Position numbers and translations under genes: made by a program | The notes under the pieces: model-generated | What the model saw: only the letters and a program-made list of their open reading frames with translations | What the model was told of the DNA's origin: nothing | Databases searched by the model: none | In this document: piece after piece, positions 31,224 to 55,330 of the stretch | How positions within the stretch are numbered: the first letter of the stretch is position 1 | Layout: the number at the start of each line of letters is the position of its first letter | Source: Clostridiaceae bacterium | GTDB lineage: Bacteria; Bacillota; Clostridia; DUPQ01 | Reading direction: 5' to 3' | Assembly (NCBI GenBank): GCA_012838235.1 | Contig: DUPQ01000032.1 | Location: 1-64,000 of the forward strand | DNA: 64,000 nt

Positions 31224-32474
31224 ATGAACTGGATTGACAGAACCATTACAAATCATCTTCTTCATGCAATGGATTTTTTCCCTGCCGTTTTATTAACAGG
31301 TCCCAGACAGGTAGGAAAGTCCTCTTTGTTACAAATGGTTGCAAAGGATTTTGAGTATATAACCTTTGATAACGCCCTTATTCTGCAACAGGCAAAAAGC
31401 GATCCTGAGTTGTTTCTTATGAGCCATTCACCAAAATTGATTCTTGATGAAATACAATATGTTCCGGAATTGTTTTCTTCTTTGAAGATAAGAATCGACA
31501 ATATGAGATTTGAGGCATTAAGTAACAACAAACCCAGAGAATGCTTATATCTGTTGTCCGGTTCGCAAGCATTTGAATTAATGCAGAATGTCAGCGAATC
31601 TTTAGCGGGAAGATTGGCAATATTGCCTCTTCAAGGGATATCTTATCGTGAGCAAAAAAAGATATCCTGTGCACTTCCTTTTCTTCCTACCGAGCAATAT
31701 CTTTCCGTCCGCGAAAAAGAAAGCGTAGATTTATCAGACCTTTGGGAAATAATACACAGAGGATATATGCCGAGACTGGTTTCTTCAAACGATGATTGGG
31801 AAACCTTTTATGCAAGCTATGTTTCAACATACATTGAGCGTGATGTTAACAAGATTTCACATATTGATGATAAAACGGATTTTGTTCGCTTCATGGCATC
31901 GGTAGCAGCAAGAAGCGGCGAATTATTGAACTATGACAGTATATCGAAAGATATCGGTGTTTCTTCCACAACAGTAAAAAGATGGCTTCAAATACTGCAA
32001 ACAGCAGGCATCATTTTCCTGCTTTATCCGTATTACAGTAATCATCTGAAACGTATGATAAAAACGCCTAAAGTATATTTTATGGATACGGGATTAATGG
32101 CTTGGCTGACAAGATGGGTTACTCCCGATACCATAAAATACGGAGCTAAAGCAGGCCAATTCTTTGAAACCTTCGTAGTTTCCGAAATTATAAAGTCATT
32201 ACTTAATGCAGGCAAATCCACACGTGATTTATATTTCTACAGAGATGCCGACCAAAAAGAGATTGATCTTATTATCCAGGACGGCAGAACAATATATCCT
32301 GTCGAGATTAAAATGACTGCCAGACCTCATAAAAAAATGGCATCGGCTTTCAGTGTTTTGGAATCAGTGAGGGCGGATGATATACAGATTGGAAACGGAG
32401 CGGTTATTAATCTGTATCACAAACCCCTGTTGATTGACAGAAATGTACTTTCCATACCGGCAGGATATTTGTAA
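31224..32474 (+). CDS. AAA+ ATP-binding protein with DUF4143-like C-terminal domain
   Basis: 'VLLTGPRQVGKSSLLQ' Walker A, 'LILDEIQYVPELFSSLK', 'YFMDTGLMAWLTRW', 'IDLIIQDGRTIYPVEIKMT' (nuclease-like core). Confidence 0.85.
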   Translation: MNWIDRTITNHLLHAMDFFPAVLLTGPRQVGKSSLLQMVAKDFEYITFDNALILQQAKSDPELFLMSHSPKLILDEIQYVPELFSSLKIRIDNMRFEALSNNKPRECLYLLSGSQAFELMQNVSESLAGRLAILPLQGISYREQKKISCALPFLPTEQYLSVREKESVDLSDLWEIIHRGYMPRLVSSNDDWETFYASYVSTYIERDVNKISHIDDKTDFVRFMASVAARSGELLNYDSISKDIGVSSTTVKRWLQILQTAGIIFLLYPYYSNHLKRMIKTPKVYFMDTGLMAWLTRWVTPDTIKYGAKAGQFFETFVVSEIIKSLLNAGKSTRDLYFYRDADQKEIDLIIQDGRTIYPVEIKMTARPHKKMASAFSVLESVRADDIQIGNGAVINLYHKPLLIDRNVLSIPAGYL

Positions 32475-32475
32475 A

Positions 32476-34827
32476 TCAGCTCACGCTAAACTCCGTTTCG
32501 GCGGTTACATCCTTTCCGATTACTCTTAAAACCGCCTTGCCGCTTTGTTTATCGGTTTTTACATATACCCCGGCACAACCTCCCTTTAGCGAGATAAGTT
32601 CGGGACCTATAAGCTTTATAGGACCTTCGGTAACAATTCGTAAAGGCTCGTTGCAGTAATTTAAAAGGTTCATATTCTGATCCACCGCCCTTATGGTTAC
32701 CGATGCGGTATCGTAAGTTTCTTCTTCTTTCAATTCATGAGCATCTGCCGATAAGACTAATTGCATCTTATTCATAGGTTCTTTAATTTCGGTTATTACC
32801 GTTTTTCCGTCCTTAATACCTTCAAACACATACTGTTTTACATTGTCTCCCCAACCCGCCACATGAGCAGTGATTATTTCCGTCAGTTTGTTTATTGTAA
32901 GTTTTTCTTTTATAAGTACCGTCACAAGCATCAGCATATATCCAAGCGGAAGATTTTCCGGTCCGTTTACATATATATATGACAAAAGTTTTTTAATTAC
33001 CCTTGATGAATATTCGGAAAAATGCAAATCGTCAATTAACATATTTCCCGTGAAGTCATCTATTTCTATAGGAGGGTGTAATAAATGTTTGAATCGCTTT
33101 CTGTCGGGATAAAAGTCTTTTATATGCTTTCCGTTTATGCTCATCTTTATATAATCGCAATTGGTGAAGGCCCATACGCTTTTTGTCATTGCCATGGGAT
33201 AATCGCCTTTCGACATGGATGTGGCTACATGCATTACCGGATATTTATCGGTCTGTGATGCGTATACATATGCGGCATCTTTCGGATTTCTGAACATGTC
33301 CAGCACCCCATGATAACATATCCTGTCACCGCTTCCGAAATCCTTATGTGTATTGTAGTCGTTCATGCACCAGCCGAAACTTCCTGCCACACCGTCATCT
33401 CCCATGACGGCATTCAGCACTCTTGCGTGGCGTAGGGCATGTTCTGTTCTGTGCGGTTGGTCATCAAACATTTTGGTAGGATACATATGTCCGTTATACT
33501 CGGTTATGAGATACGGCACATCACCTTTTGTCACATCTTTTTTCTTTGCTATTACCTGCTTTGTACCGTTATGGGTAAAATCATTGTAGGTATAGACATC
33601 CTCCAAAAAGCTGCTTTTTTTAATACATCTCACTCCGCCGGTCTGCCTGTACGAATCATATTGCTTAGCAACCTTATTGGTTTGCCTGTAAAAGTCGTCA
33701 TCATCAGGTGATTCGTTTATTCTGACCCCCCACAATATTATGCTCGGATGATTTCTGTACTGTTTTACCATGTTTTCGGTATTTTCCACGGCCTTTTTCT
33801 TCCACTGCTCATCACCTATATGCTGCCATCCCGGTATCTCGGTAAACACCAACAACCCTATTTCATCACATCTGTTTATGAAATGTTTACTCTGGGGATA
33901 ATGCGATGTCCTGACCGCATTTACATTCAGCATATTTTTCAGTATATCGGCATCATTTATCTGTACTCTTTTGCTCATTGCATATCCTGTATATGCATAA
34001 GACTGATGTCTGTTAAGCCCTGTTACTTTGACCTTTTTACCGTTAAGATAAAAACCGTCATTCTTAAAAATCGCATCACGGAATCCGAACCGGTCACAAT
34101 ACTCATCTGAAAGCTTTTTGTTACGGTAAAGTTTTACTGTAATTCTATAAAGGTTAGGATTGTCGATATCCCAGTTTTCCGCCGGGACTTTTTCAGACAA
34201 ATGAATAATCTCTTTCCTCACCGGATAGTATTTTTCAAAAACACATTCATTATCTTTAACCGCAAAGATTGAAAGTTGTATCTCACAATCCTCCGTACAG
34301 TTAACTATTTGCACTTCCGCAAAAAACTCGCATAATCCGTCAGCCGCTTTGGCCTTACCGGATACAAACACATCGGAAATGTGTGTCTTCTCTTTAATAT
34401 CAATGTATGCTTCCCTGTAAATACCTCCGTAAGTCATATAATCTATAACATTACCGAAGGGAGGCTGGTTTAATGTTTCATAAGCATCGGCAATAACAGT
34501 TATTCTGTTTTCTTTCCCCCATTCAATATATTGAGATATGTCAACGGTGAATGAAGTATATCCGCAACTGTTACTATATACATGCCTGTCATTTATATAC
34601 ACCTCGGCTTCATGAGCTACTGCTGAAAAAGTGAGTAATATAGTTTTGTTTTCCCACGAGTTATCCGCATGAATAATCTTTTCATATTTCGATATTTTCT
34701 GATAAATTGCTTCGTCAAAACAATTATATGGCATATCGACATTACTGTGCGGCAGTCGCACGGTAAAAGATTCGGAAGATTCAACCGACGGATAAAATTG
34801 CCAGTCATCATTTATATGTATTCTCAT
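32476..34827 (-). CDS. glycoside hydrolase family 2 (beta-galactosidase/beta-glucuronidase-like)
   Basis: 'VTGLNRHQSYAYTGYAMSKRVQINDADILKNMLNVNAVRTSHYPQSKHFINRCDEIGLLVFTEIPGWQ', 'HPSIILWGVRINES', 'LITEYNGHMYP'. Confidence 0.92.
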   Translation of the reverse strand: MRIHINDDWQFYPSVESSESFTVRLPHSNVDMPYNCFDEAIYQKISKYEKIIHADNSWENKTILLTFSAVAHEAEVYINDRHVYSNSCGYTSFTVDISQYIEWGKENRITVIADAYETLNQPPFGNVIDYMTYGGIYREAYIDIKEKTHISDVFVSGKAKAADGLCEFFAEVQIVNCTEDCEIQLSIFAVKDNECVFEKYYPVRKEIIHLSEKVPAENWDIDNPNLYRITVKLYRNKKLSDEYCDRFGFRDAIFKNDGFYLNGKKVKVTGLNRHQSYAYTGYAMSKRVQINDADILKNMLNVNAVRTSHYPQSKHFINRCDEIGLLVFTEIPGWQHIGDEQWKKKAVENTENMVKQYRNHPSIILWGVRINESPDDDDFYRQTNKVAKQYDSYRQTGGVRCIKKSSFLEDVYTYNDFTHNGTKQVIAKKKDVTKGDVPYLITEYNGHMYPTKMFDDQPHRTEHALRHARVLNAVMGDDGVAGSFGWCMNDYNTHKDFGSGDRICYHGVLDMFRNPKDAAYVYASQTDKYPVMHVATSMSKGDYPMAMTKSVWAFTNCDYIKMSINGKHIKDFYPDRKRFKHLLHPPIEIDDFTGNMLIDDLHFSEYSSRVIKKLLSYIYVNGPENLPLGYMLMLVTVLIKEKLTINKLTEIITAHVAGWGDNVKQYVFEGIKDGKTVITEIKEPMNKMQLVLSADAHELKEEETYDTASVTIRAVDQNMNLLNYCNEPLRIVTEGPIKLIGPELISLKGGCAGVYVKTDKQSGKAVLRVIGKDVTAETEFSVS

Positions 34828-34842
34828 AGTAGCCTCCTTCTG

Positions 34843-36045
34843 TCAGATTGCTTTTTCTTTTTCTGTAAAGACAACAACCAACAGGGAGCCTGCGGCGGAT
34901 ATTATGGTTGCTATCAACAGCATTGAAGGTATTGATAATGCATCTATCAATGTTCCTCCCAGCAGACTTCCGAAAACACCGCCTAATGTCATGGTTGTAG
35001 TCAGATATGCCTGACCTTTTATTCTGTCATTATCCCGCATCAGGTTGTTTATATAATAGACTGTTGCCGGAACAAATACGGCATAGGAAAACATCTGTAA
35101 TGAATAGCTCGCATATATGTGATTAATATTCTTTGATAAAAGAATTCCCAGTTTTTCTATTGTAAAGAATACTGCGGAGATTTGTACCAGCATACTGCAT
35201 TTTAATCTCTTTGATATTATGAGATACAAAATCATACCTATAACTTCAAATATTGCAGCTATACCCAACACGTTTCCCAGTTCGGCAGAACCGTGCCCCA
35301 ATCTCTTTACGATATTAATAAGGAAATTTATATTCATGTTGTGGCTTGTAAATATCAGGGTTGAACCTATTAAAAGCCCGGTAAACTTTTTATACTTCGC
35401 AAAAAACTTAAACACTCCCGTAGCAGGTGCATGCGCATATTTGATAACTTCGGAGGATATGCCCACATCATGTGCAGGCTTGAAAGACAGTGTAACGGGA
35501 ATTAACAGCAGGAACATAGCAAAGTATATTACGGGAACCGAATCCGCTCCCAATTTCGCAGTAATATATCCTACACCGAAAGAGGCAAAAGCCGCACCTA
35601 ACGAACCGACAGCTCTTGCGATAGTGAAATTGAGTTGTATGCCTTTGTTGGCGTATTCCATGGCAAAGGAATTAATGAATGAGTGCAATGTATGTACGAA
35701 GGTTATTATGAGCAATAACAATATGGCTGTTAGATAAGGATAACTCCTTATAGCCACAATCAAAACAGTCAATACAACAATTGCAGAGGTTAACGCCAAT
35801 ATTATTCTCTTTAATTTCGACTCTTCCGCTTTGTCTGCATAGGCCGCTATAGGCGGTTGTAATAAGGCTGCCAATATGCTTGCTACCGCAAGTATGATTC
35901 CTGTCTGTGAACTGTTAAATCCTTTATCCGAAAGAAAGTATGCGGCATAATTGTATACGGTTATAAAGCCCATCCAGTAGAGAGCCTGCATTACCCCGTA
36001 CTTTATATTCAACCTCAATGTTACCTTCTTCAGTGACATGTTCAC
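34843..36045 (-). CDS. MFS transporter (oligosaccharide/nucleoside:H+ symporter-like)
   Basis: 12-TM hydrophobic pattern, 'YWMGFITVYNYAAYFLSDKGFNSSQTGIILAVASILAALLQPPIAAYADK'. Confidence 0.8.
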   Translation of the reverse strand: MNMSLKKVTLRLNIKYGVMQALYWMGFITVYNYAAYFLSDKGFNSSQTGIILAVASILAALLQPPIAAYADKAEESKLKRIILALTSAIVVLTVLIVAIRSYPYLTAILLLLIITFVHTLHSFINSFAMEYANKGIQLNFTIARAVGSLGAAFASFGVGYITAKLGADSVPVIYFAMFLLLIPVTLSFKPAHDVGISSEVIKYAHAPATGVFKFFAKYKKFTGLLIGSTLIFTSHNMNINFLINIVKRLGHGSAELGNVLGIAAIFEVIGMILYLIISKRLKCSMLVQISAVFFTIEKLGILLSKNINHIYASYSLQMFSYAVFVPATVYYINNLMRDNDRIKGQAYLTTTMTLGGVFGSLLGGTLIDALSIPSMLLIATIISAAGSLLVVVFTEKEKAI

Positions 36046-36292: not shown

Positions 36293-36862
36293 ATGATGCT
36301 TCAGGAACTGCTTGAAAGAGAAAATATGACTCTGTATAAACTGTCAAAAAACAGCGGTGTTCCTTATACTACCGTTAATGACATATATCACGGAAGAACC
36401 GGCTTGGGCAAATGTACGGCGGAAACGGTGTATAAACTGTCCAAGGCACTTAGTGTGAGCATGGAAGAACTTCTCCTGCCTTATCTGATAGAGCGAACAG
36501 ACTTTGAGCTTTATAAAAGCAGTGTTTGTCATAGATTAAAAGAATCGGGCGATATGGCTTTTATTGCCGAAACTCTTCAGCAAGACAATATCAGTAAGTT
36601 ATACCGACGCAAAATGTATCCGGAGAGTCTCTACTTGCTTGCTATGCTTGACTATGTGAGTAGAGAAAACAATATTCCTTTGTGTACAAAGTACGATGCA
36701 TTGCGCAATGTTAAACTGGAGGAAACGCTTTATCCCGCCGGAGTACTTGTCATGAATACGGTAATCGGAAACAATAAAATTAAGGAAGATGCATTATCTC
36801 AAGCCATTCCGGAATTCATGCGCCACAATATTGTAGAAAGCGAGGTGCGTAATGTCATCTGA
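36293..36862 (+). CDS. XRE-family HTH protein (putative antitoxin)
   Basis: 'MTLYKLSKNSGVPYTTVNDIYHGRTGLGKCTAETVYKLSKALSVSMEELL' HTH; 11-bp overlap with next gene. Confidence 0.8.
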   Translation: MMLQELLERENMTLYKLSKNSGVPYTTVNDIYHGRTGLGKCTAETVYKLSKALSVSMEELLLPYLIERTDFELYKSSVCHRLKESGDMAFIAETLQQDNISKLYRRKMYPESLYLLAMLDYVSRENNIPLCTKYDALRNVKLEETLYPAGVLVMNTVIGNNKIKEDALSQAIPEFMRHNIVESEVRNVI

Positions 36863-37583
36863 TACAGTTTATTCATTTAATAAAGACAATTTAGATATTT
36901 ATTTAAAAGAGTTGGCAAAGCTCTTTCGCAAACAAAACGGCAAGAAAGCTACAGCGGAAATCATTCTGGTAGGCGGAGCAGCCGTTTTGGTTAACTACGG
37001 TTTTCGTAATATGACAGCAGACATAGATGCCATCATTCATGCTTCCTCTTCCATGAAAGACGCTATCAACCAAATCGGTGATAAGTATAATTTGCCTAAC
37101 GGTTGGTTGAATACCGACTTTATACGTACCGCTTCTTATTCAGATAAACTCAATGTTTTTTCTGTGTATTATAAAACCTTTTACGGTGTTCTTCAGGTGC
37201 GTAGTATATCAGCAGAATATCTCATTGCAATGAAACTTAAGTCAGGTCGGAAATATAAAAATGATATGTCAGACATCATAGGCATTTTGGCAGAACATAA
37301 AGAACGTAAAGAGCCTCTGACTTGGGAAAAAGTAAATCAAGCCGTAGTAGATCTATATCAAGACTGGGACGGCATTACTGAGGAAGTCAAAGTCTTTATC
37401 AAGAATGCTATTGACACCGATAACTATGATACAGTGTTTCAGCAAATAAAAGAACAGGAACAGCTCTCCAAAAATATATTAATTCAATTTCAACAGGAGC
37501 ACCCGCATACTGTAACGGAATCAAATGTTGACAGTATATTAAGAATGCTTGAATCCAAAAAGACATCCGATGCTCTTGAGTAA
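36852..37583 (+). CDS. DUF6036/AbiEii-like nucleotidyltransferase (putative toxin)
   Basis: 'EIILVGGAAVLVNYGFRNMTADIDAII' NTase GG(x)nDxD-type motif; 'EYLIAMKLKSGRKYKNDMSDI' typical of AbiEii/DUF6036 families. Confidence 0.75.
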   Translation: MSSDTVYSFNKDNLDIYLKELAKLFRKQNGKKATAEIILVGGAAVLVNYGFRNMTADIDAIIHASSSMKDAINQIGDKYNLPNGWLNTDFIRTASYSDKLNVFSVYYKTFYGVLQVRSISAEYLIAMKLKSGRKYKNDMSDIIGILAEHKERKEPLTWEKVNQAVVDLYQDWDGITEEVKVFIKNAIDTDNYDTVFQQIKEQEQLSKNILIQFQQEHPHTVTESNVDSILRMLESKKTSDALE

Positions 37584-37754: not shown

Positions 37755-39458
37755 CTAAACTATACTACCTATTGCATTCAATGCACTGGCAAGTTCCTTC
37801 TTTGGTCTTTTTATTTTTCCGGTATAGCCGAGATTGTGAACCAAAATGTCAATACAATCGTTGTCTGAAAGTTGAGTTATAACATCAAGCTTTAGCCTAG
37901 CCCTTGAAGTTCCAACATAGTAAATCAGAACATTCTTGGAATTAAATGAATCGCTATCAACATCAATAAGAATTATCGCATCTGCTTCAAGTCCTTTAAA
38001 TTTTCGGCATGTTGTAAAACGATATTTGTTTCTATATAAACCATCTTTACATTTTGAATTAAATACGCTCTCCTCCTCAGTCTTGCAAGTTAAAATAACT
38101 ATGTCGGAAAAACCATCCTTGTTCAAGTTGTTGATTGTATGGTCAATTCGTGCCAATACACTTTCAGGGGAAGAGCAAAAATGGATTTTTGCAGGTACTC
38201 CTTTTAAGCATCCCTCAATCAGAAGTGGCTTTTTGACAGTTATGGGACGCAAAGAAGTAGTAGCAATATTTTCGGTATTTCTGCAATTTTTGTAGAGAGT
38301 CAATTTACAGTCTGCTTCTTCAATAAATTTCGGAAAATGATTTGCTTGAATCATCTGTAACTTATCATAAAAGACATAAAAAGTACCAAGTGGTTTTGTA
38401 TCAGTTATAATATCTTTCATCAACTGCAGAATATCAGCCTCATTTATTGTATCAATTCCGAAATCTTGCCCCTCATCAACTATTATGTGTTGATAAGGAA
38501 AAGACTCCGACAAATACATATCTTCAAGAGCCGCTTTAAATCTTTTATAGTCAGGTACAGCAGTATCACATACTTTACAAGCGAGACCTGCAACGGTGTA
38601 GAAATCAATTTTTTCATTTTGATAGCACTTACTAAGATGGGTTTTTAACTGGTTATTAAAGCATAAAAATAAAACTTTTTCACCTGATGAAGCATGCCGT
38701 TGCGCTTTTTCAATAGCAATCATTGTTTTTCCAGTTCCTGCCACACCATTTATAACTGCTGTTCTCTGTTCCGTAAGGAAATTTAATATTCCCTCTTGTT
38801 CCTTCAGAAACCTGTGAAAAACAATTTTCTTCAAGTCGTTTTCAAATGAGGCTGACGGGAAAACATTGAACTGTGGACAGAAAATTTCTCGTATAATTTT
38901 CTTCTCTTCATATTCACTTAAATCCGTGGTTATTCCATTGGGTAATTCTGTGCTGAAAATTTTATTCAAATACTCATCCGGACTTTCAAGTGCTTCTTTT
39001 GTCATAATCAGATTTCTATCAGCTTCCGGTGGAAGTGTCATAGTCCTCAACCTTATATCTGTTACCGATGGAAACCATACACCATGGAGAAATTTGCAGC
39101 GACTCAATATCCCGGAACAACTGCTTCTTTCAATATAGCGAATTAATTTATATTTATTAGACGAAGCTTGATTGAACGGACCGCCATTATGCATAGGTTC
39201 TCCACTTGAATAATACCAGTAACCGTTTTCATATATAACTTGTCCGGCTTTTGCCTCGATACAAAGTACGCCTTTTCTGCGATTAAATATCACAAAATCA
39301 GTTTCACTCTCATGAAGAATATTCTCAGTCACACTGGCAATTCTAAATGAGTGGAAAACATAATAGTCGTCAGGTAATAATTTCAATGCATCAAACATTA
39401 ATCCTTCAAGGCTTACTGAATCAAATTGGTGAGGCTTTTCAGGAATCATTATTGCCAT
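37755..39458 (-). CDS. NERD nuclease-domain + SF1 (UvrD/Rep-like) helicase fusion
   Basis: N-term 'ESETDFVIFNRRKGVLCIEAKAG' (NERD, D..ExK), 'INGVAGTGKTMIAIEKA' Walker A, 'IIVDEGQDFG' Walker B, 'CRKFKGLEADAIILIDVD...YVGTSRARLKLDVI' C-terminal SF1 motifs. Confidence 0.88.
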   Translation of the reverse strand: MAIMIPEKPHQFDSVSLEGLMFDALKLLPDDYYVFHSFRIASVTENILHESETDFVIFNRRKGVLCIEAKAGQVIYENGYWYYSSGEPMHNGGPFNQASSNKYKLIRYIERSSCSGILSRCKFLHGVWFPSVTDIRLRTMTLPPEADRNLIMTKEALESPDEYLNKIFSTELPNGITTDLSEYEEKKIIREIFCPQFNVFPSASFENDLKKIVFHRFLKEQEGILNFLTEQRTAVINGVAGTGKTMIAIEKAQRHASSGEKVLFLCFNNQLKTHLSKCYQNEKIDFYTVAGLACKVCDTAVPDYKRFKAALEDMYLSESFPYQHIIVDEGQDFGIDTINEADILQLMKDIITDTKPLGTFYVFYDKLQMIQANHFPKFIEEADCKLTLYKNCRNTENIATTSLRPITVKKPLLIEGCLKGVPAKIHFCSSPESVLARIDHTINNLNKDGFSDIVILTCKTEEESVFNSKCKDGLYRNKYRFTTCRKFKGLEADAIILIDVDSDSFNSKNVLIYYVGTSRARLKLDVITQLSDNDCIDILVHNLGYTGKIKRPKKELASALNAIGSIV

Positions 39459-39459: not shown

Positions 39460-41811
39460 TTATTTCCCCCCTATTGCGTTTAAAATATCAGTTGCATCAA
39501 TTATCTTATTGTCACCGCAAAAACATTTCCACTTCTCGGTAGTAATTTTTTCGAAAGTATCTTTGTAATCCGAAGAAAAATACATAACTTTAGATTTTTC
39601 CCACAATAATGTTGCCCTATATTTTTTTGAATCCCCTGCAATAATAAATGAGCACTCATAAACCGGTTTTTCCTTTGAATCACATATATCTGCAATATTA
39701 ATCAATTTATCAAGCAAAGACCGTTCTGTCAGATTATCTGTCCATTCTTTAACTGATTTCCATATATCAGCATAACTGACATCACTCATATCGGTACCCT
39801 TTTCCGGAATAATCACTTGAAGATTTGTTTTTCTGTTCGCTGAAGAATCCTCTGTATGTGTAACAAAACTTTCCCATCGCCTGTTACCATGCAATTGTTC
39901 ATAAAAAAATCCGAGACGGTAGTTATTAATCACTCCTGCAACAGTTCCTCTGTCAAGAAAGATGTTGAATTCTTCGCAACTTGTTTCAGGAATAAGTGCA
40001 CATGAATAGCATGCTGCTAAATTAAGCGAATCTCTTCCTTGTCCCAAACTTAAACTGCAAACCGGATCATTTGAACACACTTCGCTTGATTTAATTGCCT
40101 TTTTAAAAATGTTCGGAAATGTATCCGGATACCCTTGGCGAACAAGTCCTCCCAATGTTCCTTCTGAATCTCCGCTTGCGGTATAGATAAGTATACCCGC
40201 CATCTCTTTTCCTTCACTTCCCTCACTGCAATAAATTCTTTCTTTCAATGAGGCAATACTATAGCCGCATTCGAAACTCAACTGTTTAATCAAAAGATGT
40301 GAAATAGTATGCAAAAGAACATACTTACTTGTCACTGTACGCGGGTTACCAGAGCTGATAAATGATTTGCTGTAATTCTCGTTCAGTCTGTCTATTCGTA
40401 ATTGTAAATCACGGTTTTCGCTACGCCAATTATTGATTGCTTCTTGATTGAATTCAATAAAAATGCCTTCACCGCGTACTTCATATGCAGGATACCAGTT
40501 TGTTGTCGGTTCTTTTATCGGTACATCATTCACCTGTTTCCCAACAGGTTCTGTTCTGTCAACAGGTCTGATTCTTGAAAACCCTGTCAAAGCTTGTACT
40601 TCACGAACCTTATGAATCAGTGAAATACGCTTAATATATGGCAAATTGTATGCAACGATATCAGTTGATTCTCTTTGAAAATCGCCATATATGTCTTTAC
40701 CTAACGATATTTCTCCGCTCAAAGCGTCATATTCTTCCGCACGATACTTTACACTCAATGTACTGTATTCTTCTTCTGAAGGTTGGCGCCATTTTCTTTC
40801 AAGTACTTGTTTTATTTTTTCAGGCGATACATTGATTTCCAGGCTCATCTGGTTTGAGTAATGGTCAATTTGGTTAACAATAATGGCATCTTTACTCTCC
40901 TGTGCGGTGTAGGGATTACGCATAAATGCAGAAATAACGTTCTTGCACTCAGAAAATGCAGAGCTCTCCTCTATTTTTCTAGTTAACATACTTGAATACG
41001 GTGGAATCACTAATGAACTTACGATGACGGGAAAGTATACTGAGGAACTGCCTCGTTGCAAGACCTTCGGGTAGAGCGAGCAACTTTCCTTTTGATTTTT
41101 CCAAGGATGCCTTCCCGAGCAAGTGAAATTGTAGTAATTGTTGTGTTTTTTATCAAGTTCTTCAAATATTTCCCTGTCAAAAGCTTCTTTTAATGTCGTT
41201 TTCGCGCCGCAAGTTTCACATGTTATAACTAACCCCTCCAGACCTTCCGTTGAAGAAGCTCCAGTTTTGAAAGTAAGTGACGGGCGATTACAAATAATTT
41301 TAGCCCCGCCTGAATTTTTACAATGAACCCATTTAACCCATGGAAAATCATCAATATGTCCATGCTCACATACAGTCACTATACGAGCTACTACCAAGTC
41401 TTGATTGCATATCGGACAACACATATGCTTAACCATATACGGATCTGATTCTATTGCTCGTTTTCGACCCTTTCTTTTGTACTCATCAATCCAGTGTTTT
41501 ATAGGCTGAAACTTTCTGCATTTCGGACAAAAATACCACTCGGGAAAGCGAGCATACGATATGCCTTCTTTACATAATTCATTATTCTTACCTGCCGGTA
41601 TCCCAAAAAAATCTACACGGAGGGCTTTTTCAAGTCTCTCATCATGTATTTCTATAATTTGTTCACGCCAGTATTCGGGAGCAGCGGTCATTAAGGTCTG
41701 ATCCTTAAAATCAACCATAGCACCGACCCCATATTGCAATACAGCCTGTGAGGCTCTGACAGAATGTGTAATATGATTTAACCGTATTCTTTCAGCATTT
41801 TCGAGTTCCAT
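39460..41811 (-). CDS. drmB: DISARM protein DrmB (DUF1998-like, Zn-binding Cys motifs)
   Basis: 'NHITHSVRASQAVLQYGVGAMVDF', 'CPKCRKFQPIKHW...CCPICNQDLV..RIVTVCEHGHIDDFPWVKWVHC', 'LLHTISHLLIKQLSFECGYSIASLKERIYC', 'CSLSLGQGRDSLNLAACYSCALIPETSCEEFN'. Confidence 0.88.
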   Translation of the reverse strand: MELENAERIRLNHITHSVRASQAVLQYGVGAMVDFKDQTLMTAAPEYWREQIIEIHDERLEKALRVDFFGIPAGKNNELCKEGISYARFPEWYFCPKCRKFQPIKHWIDEYKRKGRKRAIESDPYMVKHMCCPICNQDLVVARIVTVCEHGHIDDFPWVKWVHCKNSGGAKIICNRPSLTFKTGASSTEGLEGLVITCETCGAKTTLKEAFDREIFEELDKKHNNYYNFTCSGRHPWKNQKESCSLYPKVLQRGSSSVYFPVIVSSLVIPPYSSMLTRKIEESSAFSECKNVISAFMRNPYTAQESKDAIIVNQIDHYSNQMSLEINVSPEKIKQVLERKWRQPSEEEYSTLSVKYRAEEYDALSGEISLGKDIYGDFQRESTDIVAYNLPYIKRISLIHKVREVQALTGFSRIRPVDRTEPVGKQVNDVPIKEPTTNWYPAYEVRGEGIFIEFNQEAINNWRSENRDLQLRIDRLNENYSKSFISSGNPRTVTSKYVLLHTISHLLIKQLSFECGYSIASLKERIYCSEGSEGKEMAGILIYTASGDSEGTLGGLVRQGYPDTFPNIFKKAIKSSEVCSNDPVCSLSLGQGRDSLNLAACYSCALIPETSCEEFNIFLDRGTVAGVINNYRLGFFYEQLHGNRRWESFVTHTEDSSANRKTNLQVIIPEKGTDMSDVSYADIWKSVKEWTDNLTERSLLDKLINIADICDSKEKPVYECSFIIAGDSKKYRATLLWEKSKVMYFSSDYKDTFEKITTEKWKCFCGDNKIIDATDILNAIGGK

Positions 41812-41812: not shown

Positions 41813-44800
41813 TTATTTTTCCTCCCAAATCAGAATATTACCTTTGACCAAACTGTCGACATTACGCATAGATGTCATTGTATCAAAAGCTGCATCATAA
41901 TATCCCGAATTATAAACTTTCATCAAACGGGCTTCTCCGTCTTTAGGACTTTTTATCATATACTTTTCGCCGTATGTGAAACAATCTTTTCCATAACTTT
42001 CAGCCATTCGTTCCCATTCGTCTACAATTCTATCTATCTCTTCAGAAATAAGCACACTGTCACTTGTCATCCCCGAATTCATGCGTGTGATGATTGAAGC
42101 ATCACGATTTATAATGTAGTCACGAATTTTTTCAATTGAATCAGTGTATTTTTCTTTTGAAAAATTTGCAGCACCATTTTCAGGCAAAAGATCTGTATTT
42201 GTGTGCCTGAGCAACGCAATAACTACAGCATGCAATGCTCTTTCTCTTGCAGGATTAGAAAACGGTGTAGCACCTGTAGGTTCAACATATTTGTAAAAGG
42301 ATTCATGATAGGGTTTGAATTGTTCGTAATGTGATCGGTCTCTACTTTTTGAGCCATCGTACAATATAAAAGCTATACCGGGATTTGAGCGACCTATACG
42401 GCTTGATGCTTGAATATATTCACTTGTCAACTTGGGTTGACCGACCAACAACATCACATTCAAGCGTGCTACATCAATACCTACCGAAATCATATTTGTT
42501 GCCAATAGCACATTTGATGCATATCGTTTGTTTTCGATATTTTCCTTAGAATATTCCAGTTTTTCAAGTTTATCAAGAGTTTCATTCAATTCAGTTGTTG
42601 AAACGCGACTTGTTAATTCGTCTGCACCAGCTATCATTCGAGCATCTTTTGCCGTACCGAGACGATACGCAGTTCGCTTAATAAAGTCTTTTACGTCATC
42701 ATCAACCAATGTTGAGCATTTCCCGAGATCTTTAAGACTGTTGAAATACACTGTTAAAGTCCAGAATTTATCCTTAATACTGTCAGGCAAATCCATCACA
42801 TTAATTTTTTGCAGTAATGCTGCAATAGAACGAACCTGCATCATTGCCTTTGTTTTACCGGATGGCATCAAACCGATATATAGCCTTCCATACTGGTTTA
42901 TATCATAGTTAATATTTAATTCCCTCGCAAAAAAAGAATCTTCCGCATCAAGCCCGGGTTGCGGGAACTGAGCGACCTCACGATTGTATAGTGCAGAGCA
43001 TTGTTCTGCTGCTCTTCTGATTGTCGCCGTAGAAGCAACTATTTTTGCTTTTATGCCCTTAGAACTGCACAAAGCATCAATTGCTGTCTCATAGAGCCCG
43101 ACCATCGTGCCAAGGGGACCGGAAATCAAGTGCAATTCATCCTGAATAATTAATTCCGGCGAACGATTACTGTTGTTTAATCCGAAAAATGAGCCGATTT
43201 CTTTTTTCCATGGCAACATAGCAAATTTGTCAACTGTACCAAACAGCAATGTAGGTGGTGATTTGTACAATTCCTCGTCAATTATTTGTATCGGCAATTT
43301 GCCAACTTGATTAAAGAAACAACTTTCTTGAGGACAAAACAACTCAAAATAGTTACCATTTCTCATCCTATAACCGAATTGTCCGTCAAGGCGCTGGTTA
43401 ATTCTGTTTTTATCTTTAACTAATTTTGTTCCACACCAAGGACATTTAAGAACTTGAAACTTATTATACTTGTCCTTGTTTTCACGAATATTGTCGGCTG
43501 TGGATTTAATTAACTTTTCTAAACAATCTTTTGCTTCTTTGTTCTTATTAGGTGTATGTTCGCCCCCAATCCACAATCCGATTGTTATATCATCCTCTCC
43601 AAGCGGATATGACTTATAACGAGGGTTTCTTCTCAAAGAGTCTCTTCGTATGTACTCGCACGCACAAATCAAGGTCGATGCTCTCGTAAACTGTTGTGCA
43701 GCCAACAGTCGTAAAGTATATCTCATAATAACAGAAGTACCTGCATAACTGTCGGGATGTGCAAGCCTTCTGTAAAATATGGTAAAAGCTGTTAAACCAA
43801 GATATGCTTCTGTCTTACCACCACCGGTAGGAAACCAAATTAAGTCAACAATATCCCGTTCTGCAGATGCATCTTCCGATACCGAATTTATACTCATTAA
43901 AAGAAATGCCAACTGGAAGGGGCGCCAAAAATATTTATCTGCAGTAATATCTTTATTATCTCCGTAATCAAGCTTGTTTAACATATCCGATATCTCTGGA
44001 TCATCAGGATAGCGATCAATATCCGAGGTTACTTCTTGTAGTTTCAGATGAATTCTTTGCATCAACATTGCTCTATTGGCCAATGCAAATGCATTCCATT
44101 TCATTTCGGAGGACTCCAGTGCTTTTATTCCTTTTTTAATTCGATTATATGAGATTCGGCACTTGGTTATATTGGTTTCTGCAATCTTATTATATCTTCC
44201 GTTATATTCAGCATCTATAACTGAAAGCTTTTCAGTCAGTTCATCAATCCATTTTTTGTATGCGTCAGCAAATATATTCAGAAGTTCTATTTTCTCTTCC
44301 TTTGGAGAGTCACAAAAGTCTGATAAGTAACGCATTGACAGTGTTTTTTTCTCTACTGCATATTTTGGCGGTAATTCAAAATCCATTTGCGGAACTTCTA
44401 ACATAGGGAAAAAATCGCTAAATAATTCTCCATTACCATTTCCGTCAACATTCCAGTTAATTGATGTGCCAAGCCCTGTTCCGTAAACTTTTTTGTTACG
44501 ATACTGAAGTTCCAAAGATTGCTCTTCGGAATCAAGAGCAGAAAACTCAGCCACACCGGAATAATCCCTAAAAGTAAAACTATTATCATATGAACTTACT
44601 CTTATTTCAGGCTGAAAGACACAACGCAATCCGTTAGATTTACCCTCCAAGTCATTAACAAGCATTATAGTAATCGAGTATAAGTCATCACTGATTCTTT
44701 TTCGAAGGGCAGTTAATTTTGCTTTTGTCCCATCCAATTCTTTGTTTTTATCAATGTAATCCGAATTCCCAAATTTCAGTTTAACTTCCAGCGAATGCGG

Positions 44801-45502
44801 TACACGTACAAACCCTCTTTGTCCTTGATCGGCAAGTTTGTACATTAAATCGTAAATGTTAGATTCGTCAAACTTCAGAAGGTTCTGCTTTTTCAGATTA
44901 TGAATTTCTCTTCTGCTGATTTTACTGTCTTTGAATTTAAGGCACCTTTCGGATACATCATAAACTAAATAGTTACTTAGTGGTTCAGGTACGGTATATG
45001 TCTCAGGATTTTGAGGAGAGAACGGAATTCTGCAATCATTTAATTCTGCACGAATATATGTAGCAAATGTAATTTTGCATTTGATTTCGCTCGAATCACC
45101 TAATGCAAAAAAAGTTATTCCCATTGAAGAAGGCATATTCTGTGCAGCTAAACCGATTTCTTCGTCAAGATTTTCCTCGTCCGCGGGATTCACGGAGTCA
45201 CCTTTATAACTTGTTGCTTCATTCGTTATCTCGCTATTAAGGTCTTCTTCAAAAACTTCTTCATTTTCTTCAGAGACAGATTCTTCTACTCTAACACTGT
45301 CGTCATTATCTGCATTAATCATATTATTACGCGGGAAAAGAATTCCTATTGAATAACGAATATCCGGCGAACTGGTAATCAACTCATGTTCTTCGTCGGG
45401 TATCGATATTTCCGAACCCGGACCCAACATTTCCTGTTTAATAAGTTTAACATACTCGTTTCTTGCTTCTATTAACAGCTTTATTTCATCCGCATTTGCC
45501 AT
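41813..45502 (-). CDS. drmA: DISARM helicase DrmA
   Basis: 'LIWFPTGGGKTEAYLGLTAFTIFYRRL' Walker A, 'LIIQDELHLISGPLGTMVGLYE', 'LLATNMISVGIDVARLNVMLLVGQPKLTSEYIQASSRIGR' helicase C; 1 nt from drmB. Confidence 0.88.
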   Translation of the reverse strand: MANADEIKLLIEARNEYVKLIKQEMLGPGSEISIPDEEHELITSSPDIRYSIGILFPRNNMINADNDDSVRVEESVSEENEEVFEEDLNSEITNEATSYKGDSVNPADEENLDEEIGLAAQNMPSSMGITFFALGDSSEIKCKITFATYIRAELNDCRIPFSPQNPETYTVPEPLSNYLVYDVSERCLKFKDSKISRREIHNLKKQNLLKFDESNIYDLMYKLADQGQRGFVRVPHSLEVKLKFGNSDYIDKNKELDGTKAKLTALRKRISDDLYSITIMLVNDLEGKSNGLRCVFQPEIRVSSYDNSFTFRDYSGVAEFSALDSEEQSLELQYRNKKVYGTGLGTSINWNVDGNGNGELFSDFFPMLEVPQMDFELPPKYAVEKKTLSMRYLSDFCDSPKEEKIELLNIFADAYKKWIDELTEKLSVIDAEYNGRYNKIAETNITKCRISYNRIKKGIKALESSEMKWNAFALANRAMLMQRIHLKLQEVTSDIDRYPDDPEISDMLNKLDYGDNKDITADKYFWRPFQLAFLLMSINSVSEDASAERDIVDLIWFPTGGGKTEAYLGLTAFTIFYRRLAHPDSYAGTSVIMRYTLRLLAAQQFTRASTLICACEYIRRDSLRRNPRYKSYPLGEDDITIGLWIGGEHTPNKNKEAKDCLEKLIKSTADNIRENKDKYNKFQVLKCPWCGTKLVKDKNRINQRLDGQFGYRMRNGNYFELFCPQESCFFNQVGKLPIQIIDEELYKSPPTLLFGTVDKFAMLPWKKEIGSFFGLNNSNRSPELIIQDELHLISGPLGTMVGLYETAIDALCSSKGIKAKIVASTATIRRAAEQCSALYNREVAQFPQPGLDAEDSFFARELNINYDINQYGRLYIGLMPSGKTKAMMQVRSIAALLQKINVMDLPDSIKDKFWTLTVYFNSLKDLGKCSTLVDDDVKDFIKRTAYRLGTAKDARMIAGADELTSRVSTTELNETLDKLEKLEYSKENIENKRYASNVLLATNMISVGIDVARLNVMLLVGQPKLTSEYIQASSRIGRSNPGIAFILYDGSKSRDRSHYEQFKPYHESFYKYVEPTGATPFSNPARERALHAVVIALLRHTNTDLLPENGAANFSKEKYTDSIEKIRDYIINRDASIITRMNSGMTSDSVLISEEIDRIVDEWERMAESYGKDCFTYGEKYMIKSPKDGEARLMKVYNSGYYDAAFDTMTSMRNVDSLVKGNILIWEEK

Positions 45503-45513: not shown

Positions 45514-48126
45514 TTATAAGTTAATCGGACGATTTGTCAGATTCATCGGTACAGAACGCTCAACAAATACAATCGATTCTAAGTAAAGAATCTTAGCAAC
45601 AGAATCAATTCTGTCATATATATAAGCCTCTAATGTACCCTCTTTAGGTGTTCTGCCGCTTATTTTTTTGATAATTGCTTCACCTATCCAATCCAAAATT
45701 TGTCGTCTTATTTTTCTAATAGTTTTACATGCATTGAAATAGTTTTGGGCATTATCAAACATTTCTTCATCTCCTACCAATAAAGCAATTTGTTTAATGG
45801 AGTCAACTTCTCTTGGTCCTACTGTATGAGAATCCTCATCCAGCCATCCTCGAATTGTTGCTTCTTGGACATTAACTCCGTTTCTTATCATTCTTTTGGC
45901 AATTTCTCCTGCCGAGAGACCTGTTATTTGCATATACTTCTGTAATATTTGTTTCCACTTCTTTGATTTTGAATAACTTTCAATAATCTCAGAACCGACT
46001 CTTCGTTCGTCAACTAACTTTGTTAAAACAGTATCCACAATATCTCGTGTTTCATCGGTATTATGCGTAAAGATTAAAGAATCTCCTTCTTTCAAATCAG
46101 AAACATTAACTTCATTAACAATACCGTCACTTTCATCAAAAACATATGCTTTGTAAAACTTTGTGAAAAAGATTCTCTCTCCGCTATCAAATATACCGGC
46201 TGCAATCACATCAGCATTAGGAGTATATCCAGATTGATTTTCAAATGCCTCAATTCCACTGAACGCTGCTATTTCATTTAACTTACTGATATAGTCATCA
46301 ATACTTTCCTCTATTTGCGCAACTTCTTCAACATCTTCTACATTATCTGTACAATACGTTTCATCTGTTATAAACTCATCTGACATACCCGCTGATGCAG
46401 TGTTCATAGAATTCAGTTCTGCTTCTTCACGGTGGAATTTCCCCGCTCTATATTTATAGATATTGGATTCAAATGAATAGAGTATTGTTTCAATATGTGG
46501 AGATGATGAACACTTAAATGCATTAAATCGTTTGCCGACAAAATTTCCCATGACAATTACCAAATCATATAGAACAGAATTGTCAAAACTGTTAGCATTT
46601 ATGATAGTCAGAAAGTGTTTATTATCCATAATGTCGTAATATCCGCATTTTGTCATAACAGTTACATAGTACGTCTTCGGTACAATAATTGCTATGCGCT
46701 TATCTTTGTTCTTTTCGAGTAAATCACGAAGATATTCTTCTTTTTCACATTTATCACTGAGATACAGATATGAAATTTCAAGAAGCAATATTACATTTCT
46801 TGCTCTTTCCTGCAATTGTTTGGGTAAAGAAGCTGCAGCGGAATGAAGATCTTTAAGTCTTTGTTTAACAGAGGATATCGTCAGTAATCCTAATGAAACA
46901 CAATTATCTATTTCAGTTATCTTAAAAGCTACAGTCATAAAGAGATTCATCAAGAACCATGCCGTAATAATAAAATTCTCTTTTTCTTCTGTAACATAAT
47001 CCGAGTTTTTGATGTCATAAATAGCTTCCCTGAAAATTTTATACTCTTCCCAATTCATCCATCCTTCAACAGAATGTGAAATTACTTGTCTGTCTAAAAC
47101 TGCTGAAACCTGTTTTTCAAGTTCACGGGTATATTTATTTTTAATTTCACACGGAAGAGTATTAGACAAAAGAAATCCTTTTGAACAGAGAAAAACATTT
47201 GGATTCTCTACCTGTCTGATTAAAGTAATTGCGTTTTCCGAATCAAGATTCATCATAACATAAATATATTGAAGTGATTTTCTGTTCAGGAGTTCAGGCA
47301 ATTCGGAAAGACTCTTTTCCACTGTTTCATTTCCGAAAACAATTACGCCGACATGTCTATTTCCCTCTCTTGATATAATCAATTGTCTTGCAACTGATAT
47401 CTTCCCGCTTACCTTTAGAATCGCTTCGGTTTTTGCCGTATTTCCCCTATAGTGATATTCATCGTTTTCGGAAAAGTAAGATGCAGTTATCAAGTCAAGT
47501 AACCGGATGTTCTTGCCATTAAATGATAATGCCAATTTATCAATCAGAAAGTCAGCCATGCTTCGAGGCATAACTAAAGCAACAGAAGCGTTAATAACTG
47601 CGGGAATATCTTCTGACTTGTAGTTCAAAACATCCTTATAAAAATCTTCTCGAATAGTACCCTTTTTGTGCACTCCGCGACCGTCAAGTTTTTGTGATTT
47701 TCCAAAATAAGGTTGAATTTTCCCCCATAATTTTTTAGGCACATAATCCCTGCTCCCATTTTGAGAAATTAGTATATATTCTTCTTTTTTGCCTCTGTTA
47801 AAAAAGTCTTGTTTTGTATAGCCTTCATAGGCATATCTCTTCCCTTTATAAAGAACCAAATCGCCTTCTTGTAAAGAAGCAATAATATCTTCTGTATCAT
47901 ACTCGTTATAAACCAAACAAGTAGCTGCCGCATAGACAACAGCAACAGCATTATAACAAACCGAACCTGTATGTAAAACAAATCCGGCATTATGTTTTTC
48001 TTTATTGGTTGTTTCTATTAGAAAGTCAGCAAATGTCTGCATCAATAATTCTCTTGAAATAACATTGCCCTCCAAGAGCAAATCGCATCTTTCAATTATT
48101 TTTTTGAGTGCATTTATTGCTTTCAT
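45514..48126 (-). CDS. drmE: DISARM protein DrmE
   Basis: 870 aa between drmA and the C5-MTase; 'SELPELLNRKSLQYIYVMM', 'ILLLEISYLYLSDKCEKEEYLRDLLEKNKDKRIAIIVPK', C-terminal 'YMQITGLSAGEIAKRMIRNGVNVQEATIRGWL..PREVDSIKQIALLVGD' HTH-like region expected for DrmE; assigned by size, position and sequence character. Confidence 0.75.
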   Translation of the reverse strand: MKAINALKKIIERCDLLLEGNVISRELLMQTFADFLIETTNKEKHNAGFVLHTGSVCYNAVAVVYAAATCLVYNEYDTEDIIASLQEGDLVLYKGKRYAYEGYTKQDFFNRGKKEEYILISQNGSRDYVPKKLWGKIQPYFGKSQKLDGRGVHKKGTIREDFYKDVLNYKSEDIPAVINASVALVMPRSMADFLIDKLALSFNGKNIRLLDLITASYFSENDEYHYRGNTAKTEAILKVSGKISVARQLIISREGNRHVGVIVFGNETVEKSLSELPELLNRKSLQYIYVMMNLDSENAITLIRQVENPNVFLCSKGFLLSNTLPCEIKNKYTRELEKQVSAVLDRQVISHSVEGWMNWEEYKIFREAIYDIKNSDYVTEEKENFIITAWFLMNLFMTVAFKITEIDNCVSLGLLTISSVKQRLKDLHSAAASLPKQLQERARNVILLLEISYLYLSDKCEKEEYLRDLLEKNKDKRIAIIVPKTYYVTVMTKCGYYDIMDNKHFLTIINANSFDNSVLYDLVIVMGNFVGKRFNAFKCSSSPHIETILYSFESNIYKYRAGKFHREEAELNSMNTASAGMSDEFITDETYCTDNVEDVEEVAQIEESIDDYISKLNEIAAFSGIEAFENQSGYTPNADVIAAGIFDSGERIFFTKFYKAYVFDESDGIVNEVNVSDLKEGDSLIFTHNTDETRDIVDTVLTKLVDERRVGSEIIESYSKSKKWKQILQKYMQITGLSAGEIAKRMIRNGVNVQEATIRGWLDEDSHTVGPREVDSIKQIALLVGDEEMFDNAQNYFNACKTIRKIRRQILDWIGEAIIKKISGRTPKEGTLEAYIYDRIDSVAKILYLESIVFVERSVPMNLTNRPINL

Positions 48127-48153: not shown

Positions 48154-49551
48154 TTAAATGAAACAATACCTCTTATTCTCTGTTTTTCTAATACATTCCA
48201 CACTAATCAATTGGTTTAATATCTGTAAGGTCCTTGCTTCTGTACACCCAAGCAACTCCGCCATCTCTTGTTTACTGAAAGAGGTTCTCCCTGCAAAATG
48301 ATGTACCACATCAAAATACTTATACAAAGTCTTTTTATGTAATCGTGATGATAATTTTGCTTCAATTTTTTTGCATAGTCGTAATTCATCACCATACATG
48401 GAATATAAACGTTTTTCAGAATCATCAAAGTTCCCCTCCATTACTGATAAACAATCTTTTATAAATAGTGCCATTTCTTCTATTACGGGAATAGTAACCG
48501 AATTCCCTAACTGTTTGTATTGCTGGGTAATCGATATATTTCTAGGAAAAGAAAATTTTTCGTTTCCTTCTGCGTCTTTGAAGGCATATCCTACAAATCC
48601 CTGTAAGCGTCCCCACTCAGTAGGGGTCATAACACGAATGTATTTATCATTAATGGGTGATTGCTTTCCTTTTACCATTGTGCCAGCATATTTTTTTCCG
48701 TTCTTTTGATCATAAATAAGGTTCCTCTCTTTACCTGAACCTCCAGTAGCCAGCAAAGTGTTTGCAATCGGGTTATTAATCTCCGGAGAGTTTACTATTC
48801 TGTATCCGAATCCGTTTCCTTTACTCTTTTGTCTTATAATATGATTTTCAAGAGTTTGGAGATAGCCGGAAGAAAGAAAAAATCTTGCAGGAACATCTTT
48901 TTCAAGTACTTGCTTTAACTGTGAAAAAATAGCAGGTCGCTCTCTTTTCTTAGGCATGGCATCAGGCAATGATGATACATGCTTTCCGAAATATGCACGA
49001 CTGAATGCAATAATATACACCCGTGGTCTATTTTGGGGTAATCCGAAAAACTTACTGTTGCGAATAAATGATCTGGAATATTTTTCTAAATTATCATACT
49101 CTCCATGCGGAAATCCGACTATTTCATAATCTAATTCTTCATCAAGTGTCTTAATAATTGTCTTAAATGTATTTCCTTTATCATGTATTACAAGGTTTTC
49201 GACATTTTCAAGGAAAACAACTTTAGGAATTGTGTTTTTTATTATTTTTGCTATCTCAAAAAAAACTGTTCCTCTCGTAATATCCTCAAATCCGAGTTTC
49301 TGGCCGACACTGCTAAATGCCTGACATGGAAATCCGGCCATCAAAATATCATATTGTTTTTTTGTTATTTCTTTTTGGAATTCTTCAGATGTCAAATCAT
49401 TTTTCGGATTTTCATTAAATAAGTGCTCATAAGTAATACAGGCAAGTTCATCAATTTCCGCTGATATAATGTTTTCGAAGTCTCCTGCAAGCTCAAACCC
49501 TCGTCGTATTCCCCCGATTCCCGCACACAAATCAATTGTCTTATAAAGCAT
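48154..49551 (-). CDS. drmMII: DNA (cytosine-5-)-methyltransferase, DISARM drmMII-type
   Basis: 'MLYKTIDLCAGIGGIRRGFELAG' motif I, 'MAGFPCQAFSSVGQKLGFED' motif IV, 'VFLENVENL' ENV, 'QYKQLGNSVTIPV' motif X; C-terminal winged-HTH-like extension. Confidence 0.93.
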   Translation of the reverse strand: MLYKTIDLCAGIGGIRRGFELAGDFENIISAEIDELACITYEHLFNENPKNDLTSEEFQKEITKKQYDILMAGFPCQAFSSVGQKLGFEDITRGTVFFEIAKIIKNTIPKVVFLENVENLVIHDKGNTFKTIIKTLDEELDYEIVGFPHGEYDNLEKYSRSFIRNSKFFGLPQNRPRVYIIAFSRAYFGKHVSSLPDAMPKKRERPAIFSQLKQVLEKDVPARFFLSSGYLQTLENHIIRQKSKGNGFGYRIVNSPEINNPIANTLLATGGSGKERNLIYDQKNGKKYAGTMVKGKQSPINDKYIRVMTPTEWGRLQGFVGYAFKDAEGNEKFSFPRNISITQQYKQLGNSVTIPVIEEMALFIKDCLSVMEGNFDDSEKRLYSMYGDELRLCKKIEAKLSSRLHKKTLYKYFDVVHHFAGRTSFSKQEMAELLGCTEARTLQILNQLISVECIRKTENKRYCFI

Positions 49552-49965
49552 TTAGCTTTCCTCCAAGCATTTAACAACAAAATCAGCACAAGCAGAAACA
49601 TTTTCCTTAATATCTTTGCCCCAAAATCTGATTACTCTCCATCCTTCTGACTCTAATCTTTTATTCACTTCAGCATCTCTTTGCATATTTCTCTCAATCT
49701 TCGGTATCCAAAACTCTCTTCTCGATTTAATTTCCTCCTTTTTGTTTTCCCAATCATAACCGTGCCAAAATTCACTGTCGCAAAACACAACTACTTTCTT
49801 ACCGATAAAAGCAAGATCGGGATGTCCGTAAATTGTCTTTACATTTTTTCTATAACGAACTCCACGTGCCCACAATTCCTGCCTCAGTTTCCGTTCGATT
49901 TCTGAATCTTTGTTTTTAACGGCTTGCATATTCTTTCGGCGCTGTTCCGGAGTAAGTCTGTCCAT
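49552..49965 (-). CDS. vsr: very short patch repair (Vsr) endonuclease
   Basis: 'MDRLTPEQRRKNMQAVKNKDSEIERKLRQELWARGVRYRKNVKTIYGHPDLAFIGKKVVVFCDSEFWHGYDW'. Confidence 0.95.
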   Translation of the reverse strand: MDRLTPEQRRKNMQAVKNKDSEIERKLRQELWARGVRYRKNVKTIYGHPDLAFIGKKVVVFCDSEFWHGYDWENKKEEIKSRREFWIPKIERNMQRDAEVNKRLESEGWRVIRFWGKDIKENVSACADFVVKCLEES

Positions 49966-52959: not shown

Positions 52960-53006
52960 TTACTGTTTTCTCAAATACATCTGTTTTACATATACCCAAA
53001 TTGTTG

Positions 53007-54824: not shown

Positions 54825-55089
54825 CTGTTAACCTCCATTCGTATATTTAAAATATAGATGTTTATGCAAACCGTATTAATTACTAACTAACGGTACTATA
54901 TAAACTATCTCGGATAATGCTCATACTGAAAATATGCGAATCACCAAACTTGTTGCCGTTATAACAACAATGATACATAACACTAAAAACCGTATTTTCT
55001 TTTTTTCTTCTTTCATTATTAATGCCTCTTCTCTTTCGTAAAAAATGATAAAACTGTTTTCCTGTGTTTTTTGCAGTTAATATGTCCCG

Positions 55090-55171
55090 AGTATACTTTC
55101 AACATGGGCATAAGTCAACAAAGGAGCAAAAGAATTCATGGAAAGTTAATTTTTTGTTCACACTTTATTAA
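55090..55171 (-). promoter_or_regulatory. promoter with four 11-bp phased TGAAC-like repeats
   Basis: Minus strand TTAAT-N6-TGAAC-N6-TTAAC-N6-TGAAT, 15 nt, TTGACT, 17 nt, TATACT. Confidence 0.6.
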
Positions 55172-55304
55172 CACTTTCTTCTTATACTCATGTTGTATTA
55201 CTAGCATTTACTTCAATAATTCCTTCCTCCTCTAAAAAAATCAAAAAACATGCTAATAATACCGAAACAATATTAACAACTCCTCATACAAAGTTTCGCT
55301 CCGT

Positions 55305-55330
55305 AAAATAGCACCGTGAGTGCTATTTTT
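55305..55330 (-). terminator. intrinsic terminator-like hairpin downstream of GH127 gene
   Basis: AAAATAGCAC-CGTGA-GTGCTATTTTT perfect 10-bp stem, 27 nt after the minus-strand stop. Confidence 0.6.

Follow-up and report, generated by a model that had tools for sequence, protein, structure and literature searches.

We describe a DISARM operon in a gut-type bacterium whose last gene encodes a NERD nuclease fused to an SF1 helicase (NERD-helicase). The interpretation that we favour, with modest confidence, is that this protein is the DNA-cutting effector subunit of a class-2-like DISARM system, that it docks through a C-terminal extension of DrmB and takes the place that DrmC has elsewhere, and that extension and NERD-helicase form a transferable cassette from a Druantia-III-like operon. 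As judged by sequence comparison, what appears to be new is a DISARM system with a different effector, drawn from a protein family known in other defence loci, together with a DrmB extension that is homologous to DruE C-termini.

The operon and its terminal NERD-helicase

The window (the whole stretch of 64,000 nucleotides that was analysed) carries the operon on its minus strand, with the following features:

49552..49965, minus: Vsr mismatch endonuclease (TIGR00632, 7.8e-43)
48154..49551, minus: 5-methylcytosine DNA methyltransferase, DrmMII role (PF00145 3.6e-66; PADLOC MTase_II 7.9e-79, DrmMII 3.4e-50)
45514..48126, minus: drmE, 870 aa (NF038316, 685 bits; DrmE_C 3.3e-12)
41813..45502, minus: drmA, 1229 aa, YprA-family SF2 helicase (NF038325; PADLOC DrmA)
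39460..41811, minus: drmB, 783 aa, core to about aa 636 plus C-terminal extension (NF038324, 471 bits; MZB/DUF1998 2.7e-9)
39469..39846, minus: DrmB C-terminal extension, aa 656-781 (HMM cross-matches, AF2 model)
39466..39471, minus: GGGGGG Shine-Dalgarno-like run inside drmB (sequence)
37755..39458, minus: NERD nuclease-SF1 helicase fusion, candidate effector, 567 aa
39132..39398, minus: NERD (PD-(D/E)xK) domain, aa 21-109 (Pfam PF08378 1.5e-9 and alignment)
37869..38813, minus: SF1 helicase domains, aa 216-530, with motif VI R519
38724-38747, minus: Walker A, GVAGTGKT, aa 238-245
38463-38477, minus: DEGQD, aa 328-332

The gene order is vsr, 5mC methylase, drmE, drmA, drmB and NERD-helicase, with gaps of 0, 27, 11, 1 and 1 nt at the successive junctions. 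The last gap is as an earlier note on this DNA had given it: the drmB stop codon occupies 39462-39460 and the NERD-helicase ATG 39458-39456. The G-run (39471-39466) forms a Shine-Dalgarno-like site 7 nt upstream of that ATG. The terminator scan found no terminator on the minus strand between the two genes; promoter and terminator scans came out near the shuffled expectation.

The core of DISARM is present, as drmA lies next to drmB, which encodes a DUF1998 protein, and a DNA methyltransferase gene is in the operon. The model cut-offs are 240 bits for DrmB (NF038324), 80 for DrmE (NF038316) and 950 for DrmA (NF038325); DrmA, at 930 bits, falls just below its own, and matches the PADLOC DrmA model at 1e-213. 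The PADLOC rule for DISARM class 2 consists of DrmA, DrmB, DrmC, DrmE and DrmMII. DrmE is recognized by NF038316 and the methylase by DrmMII, although MTase_II models score above DrmMII. No DrmC (PLD nuclease) is encoded in the operon, and the genome (85.6% complete) has no PLDc_2 protein to stand in for it, whereas 12 of 14 control genomes have one. In relation to class 2 (drmE-drmMII-drmA-drmB-drmC), therefore, the operon shares drmE, a 5mC methylase, drmA and drmB, but has a NERD-helicase instead of drmC, a C-terminal extension on DrmB, and vsr at the 5′ end. It is not a Druantia III operon (a single-polypeptide DruE with DruH), because the helicase is split between DrmA and DrmB, and the only DruE-like part of the pair is the DrmB extension. 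There is also no reverse transcriptase among the six genes, all of them identified, unlike the context of the PADLOC RTasNERD-Hel model.

No obvious defence island surrounds the operon: its flanks (31224-36045 and 50887-57162) include GH2, MFS, GH127 and AAA_14/DUF4143 ATPase genes, and PADLOC gave no match in ten other genes of the window. For two large neighbours (50887-52959 and 53007-54824) Pfam gave no match. At the operon edge, convergent with NERD-helicase, an HTH_26 (Cro/C1) gene overlaps a DUF6036 nucleotidyltransferase gene by 11 nt (36293-37583, plus strand), and the two look like a toxin-antitoxin pair.

The NERD-helicase reading frame, from 39458 down to 37755 on the minus strand, is real and complete by ORF calling and Pfam, in agreement with the earlier note. 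Its Pfam matches are NERD (1.5e-9), UvrD_C_2 (3.4e-6), AAA_19 (1.1e-5) and SLFN-g3 helicase (1.3e-5); ESETDFVIFNRRKGVLCIEAKAG corresponds to aa 50-72 and IIVDEGQD to aa 325-332. The active-site residues, which had been described as apparently intact, are invariant in 26 homologues with identities down to 23%, both in the NERD domain (E52, D54, E68, K70, Q97) and in the helicase (K244, D328, E329, Q331, D332, R519). The AlphaFold model that the earlier note had called for was built (best AlphaFold2 model, mean pLDDT 89); its structural matches are Schlafen 11/14, Upf1-like, RecD2 and UvrD helicases. The term “UvrD-like” used for the helicase is loosely right: UvrD is among the nearest relatives by sequence, along with HelD and Schlafen, whereas by structure the helicase part is nearer to Schlafen, Upf1-like and RecD2. 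The family is already known as defence-linked, because the best PADLOC model is the reverse transcriptase-associated RTasNERD-Hel (3.2e-57; profile 1-511 of 519, protein aa 1-529), with the CRISPR-III-associated “NERD+UvrD” model C3a187 a more distant match. These models have the same full-length domain architecture as the window protein, but PADLOC places them with reverse transcriptases or with type III CRISPR, and not with DISARM.

Relatives and their gene neighbourhoods

Relatives were collected by a family-alignment scan of one genome per species; the best 80 loci were kept, ORFs were called, HMMs built and neighbours labelled, with PADLOC identity checks for DruE in L010, L011 and L012 and for the Tiamat and BrxC loci. 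Among the 76 usable loci from these best 80, the neighbours are DISARM in 18, DruE in 14, Tiamat in 5, BREX in 3 and none of these in 36, many of the last on short contigs. The closest relatives (L020, L021 and L025, all Lachnospiraceae) have the exact order of the window, drmE-drmA-drmB-NERD-helicase, with DrmB proteins of 779-782 aa, and the next closest (L010, L012, L022-L024, L026-L030, L035) follow druE at -8 to +5 nt. The spacing to drmB is -68 to +6 nt in 14 loci, and in nearly all of 15 loci NERD-helicase lies within about 25 nt of druE. In plasmid records drmB adjoins NERD-helicase in Rhizobium, Azospirillum and Shinella; a search of plasmids with DruE yielded distant DruEs only, viral contigs gave only distant NERD-helicase relatives (8 loci), and phage records gave none. 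Purifying selection on NERD-helicase is much the same as on drmA and drmB in a related sibling operon, with dN/dS values of 0.167, 0.148 (DrmA) and 0.132 (DrmB) for the pair L151/L153.

Because many DISARM, Druantia-like, Tiamat and BREX operons have a related helicase-nuclease in the corresponding place, NERD-helicase is probably a swappable DNA-cutting effector. Against an effector role, some 23 of 96 NERD-helicase genes appear to stand alone, with no same-strand neighbour within 150 nt, and so the protein may act alone. It could then be a defence protein complete in itself, comparable to Nhi or to the helicase of Gabija with a nuclease added, that has its gene cluster and its expression in common with DISARM but no physical contact; the 36 loci without a DISARM, DruE, Tiamat or BREX neighbour and weak matches of the PADLOC Nhi, AbiO and GajB profiles are consistent with this. 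We consider such independence unlikely, if well worth keeping in mind, because the gene directly follows a DrmB or DruE with the same extension in almost all complete neighbourhoods of the window's clade, because another clade has it inside drmE-NERD-helicase-drmA-drmB, and because the extension co-diverges with it (see below).

Several other arrangements were observed. In five loci (L055, L072, L093, L094, L097) NERD-helicase comes directly after the Tiamat gene TmtA; these form one clade with full support, possibly a two-gene Tiamat variant. In three Chloroflexota loci (L057, L081, L043) it lies just upstream of BrxC. The Tiamat and BREX loci have other core proteins than the window and occupy other branches of the NERD-helicase tree. 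In two alphaproteobacterial loci (L088, L098) the NERD-helicase comes after a DruE of 2059-2114 aa; these belong to an independent branch of the family, in which the C-terminal extension is missing. In L137 a complete DrmC-type DISARM lies directly upstream of a DruH-DruE pair on the same strand.

DISARM lineages and the DrmB extension

A survey was led by the DrmB model alone, to avoid selecting loci through NERD-helicase, and sampled Bacillota and the phyla of genomes G775 (L069, Pseudomonadota), G778 (L053, Cyanobacteriota) and G776 (L070, Chloroflexota). NERD-helicase was in the operon in 12 of 83 loci, DrmC in 34 of 83 and both in 0 of 83, an exclusion significant on counts (Fisher p 9.5e-4). 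The DrmA tree, which takes in loci found through NERD and has some joins flagged for long branches, has a DrmC-bearing half (DrmC in 34 of 55 rows) with a single NERD locus; the rest are without DrmC, and about two thirds have NERD. The single locus is L049 (Vibrio hepatarius, 2889-11599), the sole case of a DrmC-like gene together with a NERD-helicase, the latter after drmB. The exclusion follows DISARM lineages and not repeated swaps. One-for-one replacement of DrmC by NERD-helicase was considered and dropped, as the DrmA tree consists of two lineages and independent pairs give no support.

It has been reported that DrmC is dispensable for DISARM and proposed that DrmAB blocks replication unaided (PMC9142583), which raises the question of whether NERD-helicase is an optional accessory, such as a repair or counter-counter-defence helicase, on a DISARM whose DrmAB core blocks phage alone. 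The window's close relatives in the DrmA tree (L139, L140, L154) have drmE and neither DrmC nor NERD-helicase, so that DISARM can exist without extension and NERD-helicase, a further point against the effector reading. On the other side, NERD-helicase is kept in 7 of the 10 DrmE loci of the DrmB-led survey, in the order drmE-NERD-helicase-drmA-drmB, and its dN/dS in the sibling operon is near the DrmA and DrmB values. An accessory role is in our judgement improbable, and we continue with the reading of NERD-helicase as an effector subunit.

The protein does not appear to have been inherited with its operon. In the NERD-helicase tree the window protein and those of L020, L021 and L025 fall among DruE-associated proteins (a set of 14 rows, 99% SH-aLRT, nine of them following DruE), and the proteins of drmE-NERD-helicase-drmA-drmB loci form a separate DISARM clade (15 rows, 99%); the Tiamat proteins form one clade. 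Host systems are clustered on this tree yet change repeatedly, because there are 20 host changes (17 with DISARM pooled) versus a shuffled mean of about 49. No NERD-helicase relics were found by tblastn in L139, L140 or L154. The grouping of the window protein with DruE-associated ones speaks against vertical inheritance within DrmE-type DISARM. Most simply, the window's DISARM sublineage would have received NERD-helicase from a DruE-type operon and placed it after drmB; the transfer would have run from a Druantia-III-like (DruE) operon to DISARM.

The DrmB extension is ~125 aa long; the nearest NERD-less DrmBs end about 125-150 residues earlier in the alignment, and those of L139, L140, L154 and L147 stop before it. 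It can be aligned to the C-terminal end of those DruEs whose genes stand directly before a NERD-helicase of the window's clade. An HMM of ten DruE C-termini matches four DrmB extensions (L020, 4e-17; window, 1.2e-15; L025, 5e-14; L021, 2.5e-5) and nothing else in 2,077 ORFs, including 80-odd other DrmBs, and among these ORFs the extension occurs only directly upstream of the window's NERD-helicase clade. A decayed Mycoplasmopsis locus (L016) retains the same set, with a DruE piece, the extension and a broken NERD-helicase. In L011 (9806-15402) two overlapping truncated ORFs remain, with the DruE C-terminus and NERD N-terminus both gone; a single deletion appears to have taken them together.

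Distances between extensions and between NERD-helicases are correlated (Mantel r 0.78, p 2e-4, n=13 loci). In the DruE loci (n=9) extension and NERD-helicase have a partial r of 0.83 (p 2e-4) when the helicase core is controlled for, versus -0.13 for core and NERD-helicase with the extension controlled for; because of this difference the extension, in this small sample of 9-13 loci, seems to behave as part of the NERD-helicase unit and not of the protein to which it is fused, although physical linkage of the tail and the next gene could alone give the same signal. We read the pair as a putative adaptor and effector that entered DISARM together, as a cassette, from a Druantia-like system.

The AF2 model of the extension (core pLDDT about 90 or more) has two helices, three strands, a helix, a strand and a helix. 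This order resembles a PD-(D/E)xK core and is suggestive of an inactivated nuclease-like domain, which would fit a report that the helicases of Druantia I and II end in inactivated Vsr domains (Bell et al., PMC12458937). Database searches gave no significant match (Pfam nothing; best Foldseek E 0.24, to PvuRts1I; hhalign to Vsr, probability 2%), and the alignment has only P90, W111 and F119 invariant and no conserved catalytic residue. An active Vsr nuclease was rejected on these same grounds.

Proposed function and implications

That NERD-helicase is a passenger or decaying gene is very improbable, as the earlier note had also held: decayed copies exist elsewhere, in Mycoplasmopsis L016 and in L011, but here the ORF is full-length with a ribosome-binding site, all motifs are invariant and synteny is conserved. 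Conserved synteny, coupling, purifying selection as on drmA and drmB, the lack of DrmC and the co-evolving DrmB extension argue for a DISARM effector. Of the note's phrase “new DISARM effector”, comparative genomics gives good support to the second part, as against a passenger; the family itself is neither new, having PADLOC profiles, nor specific to DISARM, occurring also with DruE among the nearest relatives and with Tiamat and BREX among more distant ones.

A mechanism can be outlined. DrmAB binds single-stranded 5′ overhangs, its ATPase is lowered by methylation, DrmC is often missing, and other nucleases may be recruited (PMC9142583). DrmA-DrmB would load onto exposed single-stranded phage DNA without the system's 5mC mark; the DrmB extension would dock NERD-helicase at DrmA-DrmB; the SF1 motor would then translocate or unwind, and the NERD PD-(D/E)xK site would cut the DNA. 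We infer complex formation, the docking role, nuclease activity, the DNA substrate, phage defence by the operon and the direction of transfer. In ARMADA type II, defence depends on ArmD, a fusion of a nuclease domain and a UvrD-type helicase encoded beside a YprA helicase, and on the Walker A lysine of that protein (PMC12458937). By analogy, we propose that the DrmB extension recruits NERD-helicase, which may supply unwinding and cutting. Both proteins are SF1/UvrD-type helicases that carry a nuclease domain at the N-terminus, and their genes lie just downstream of one for a YprA-family helicase. ArmD is essential in ARMADA; it differs in having a RelE-like RNase instead of NERD, BrxHII/PglX partners and a GajB-like helicase (Bell et al. 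2025, PMC12458937).

Druantia III and III-like systems (DruH-DruE) are related in that DruE is a YprA-family helicase and many Bacillota DruEs found here share the extension, followed by a NERD-helicase. They differ in that DruE is one protein versus DrmA plus DrmB in the window, and the canonical E. coli DruE has its own PLD domains (PMC13192584). A more general scheme, which we put forward tentatively as somewhat less probable than not, is that the extension (probably inactivated nuclease-like) and NERD-helicase form a portable docking-domain and effector cassette that moves between YprA-helicase systems such as DISARM and Druantia-like ones, the docking domain being grafted onto whichever protein ends the helicase core. 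Portable effectors common to unrelated systems are also seen in the nuclease-protease pairs that defence systems have acquired again and again (PMC12799240), but those are other proteins and are activated by proteolysis.

We found no paper in the open literature that links NERD-helicase to DISARM or Druantia; the original DISARM paper, outside that search, may list such genes. Bell et al. mention NERD solely for TALON (PMC12458937), and a BREX survey solely for PglW-type proteins. Nuclease recruitment by DISARM has been called a mystery (Bravo et al. 2022, PMC9142583). For the question of how DISARM destroys phage DNA, the NERD-helicase in the other half of the DISARM tree is a concrete candidate, with its active-site residues named. 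Loci of this kind would be overlooked or misassigned by detection rules in which DrmC is obligatory. The extension common to DrmB and DruE is a candidate docking site, and its presence in both suggests an exchange of effectors, as cassettes, between DISARM and Druantia-like systems; if the portable cassette is real, effector modules would be predictably swappable.
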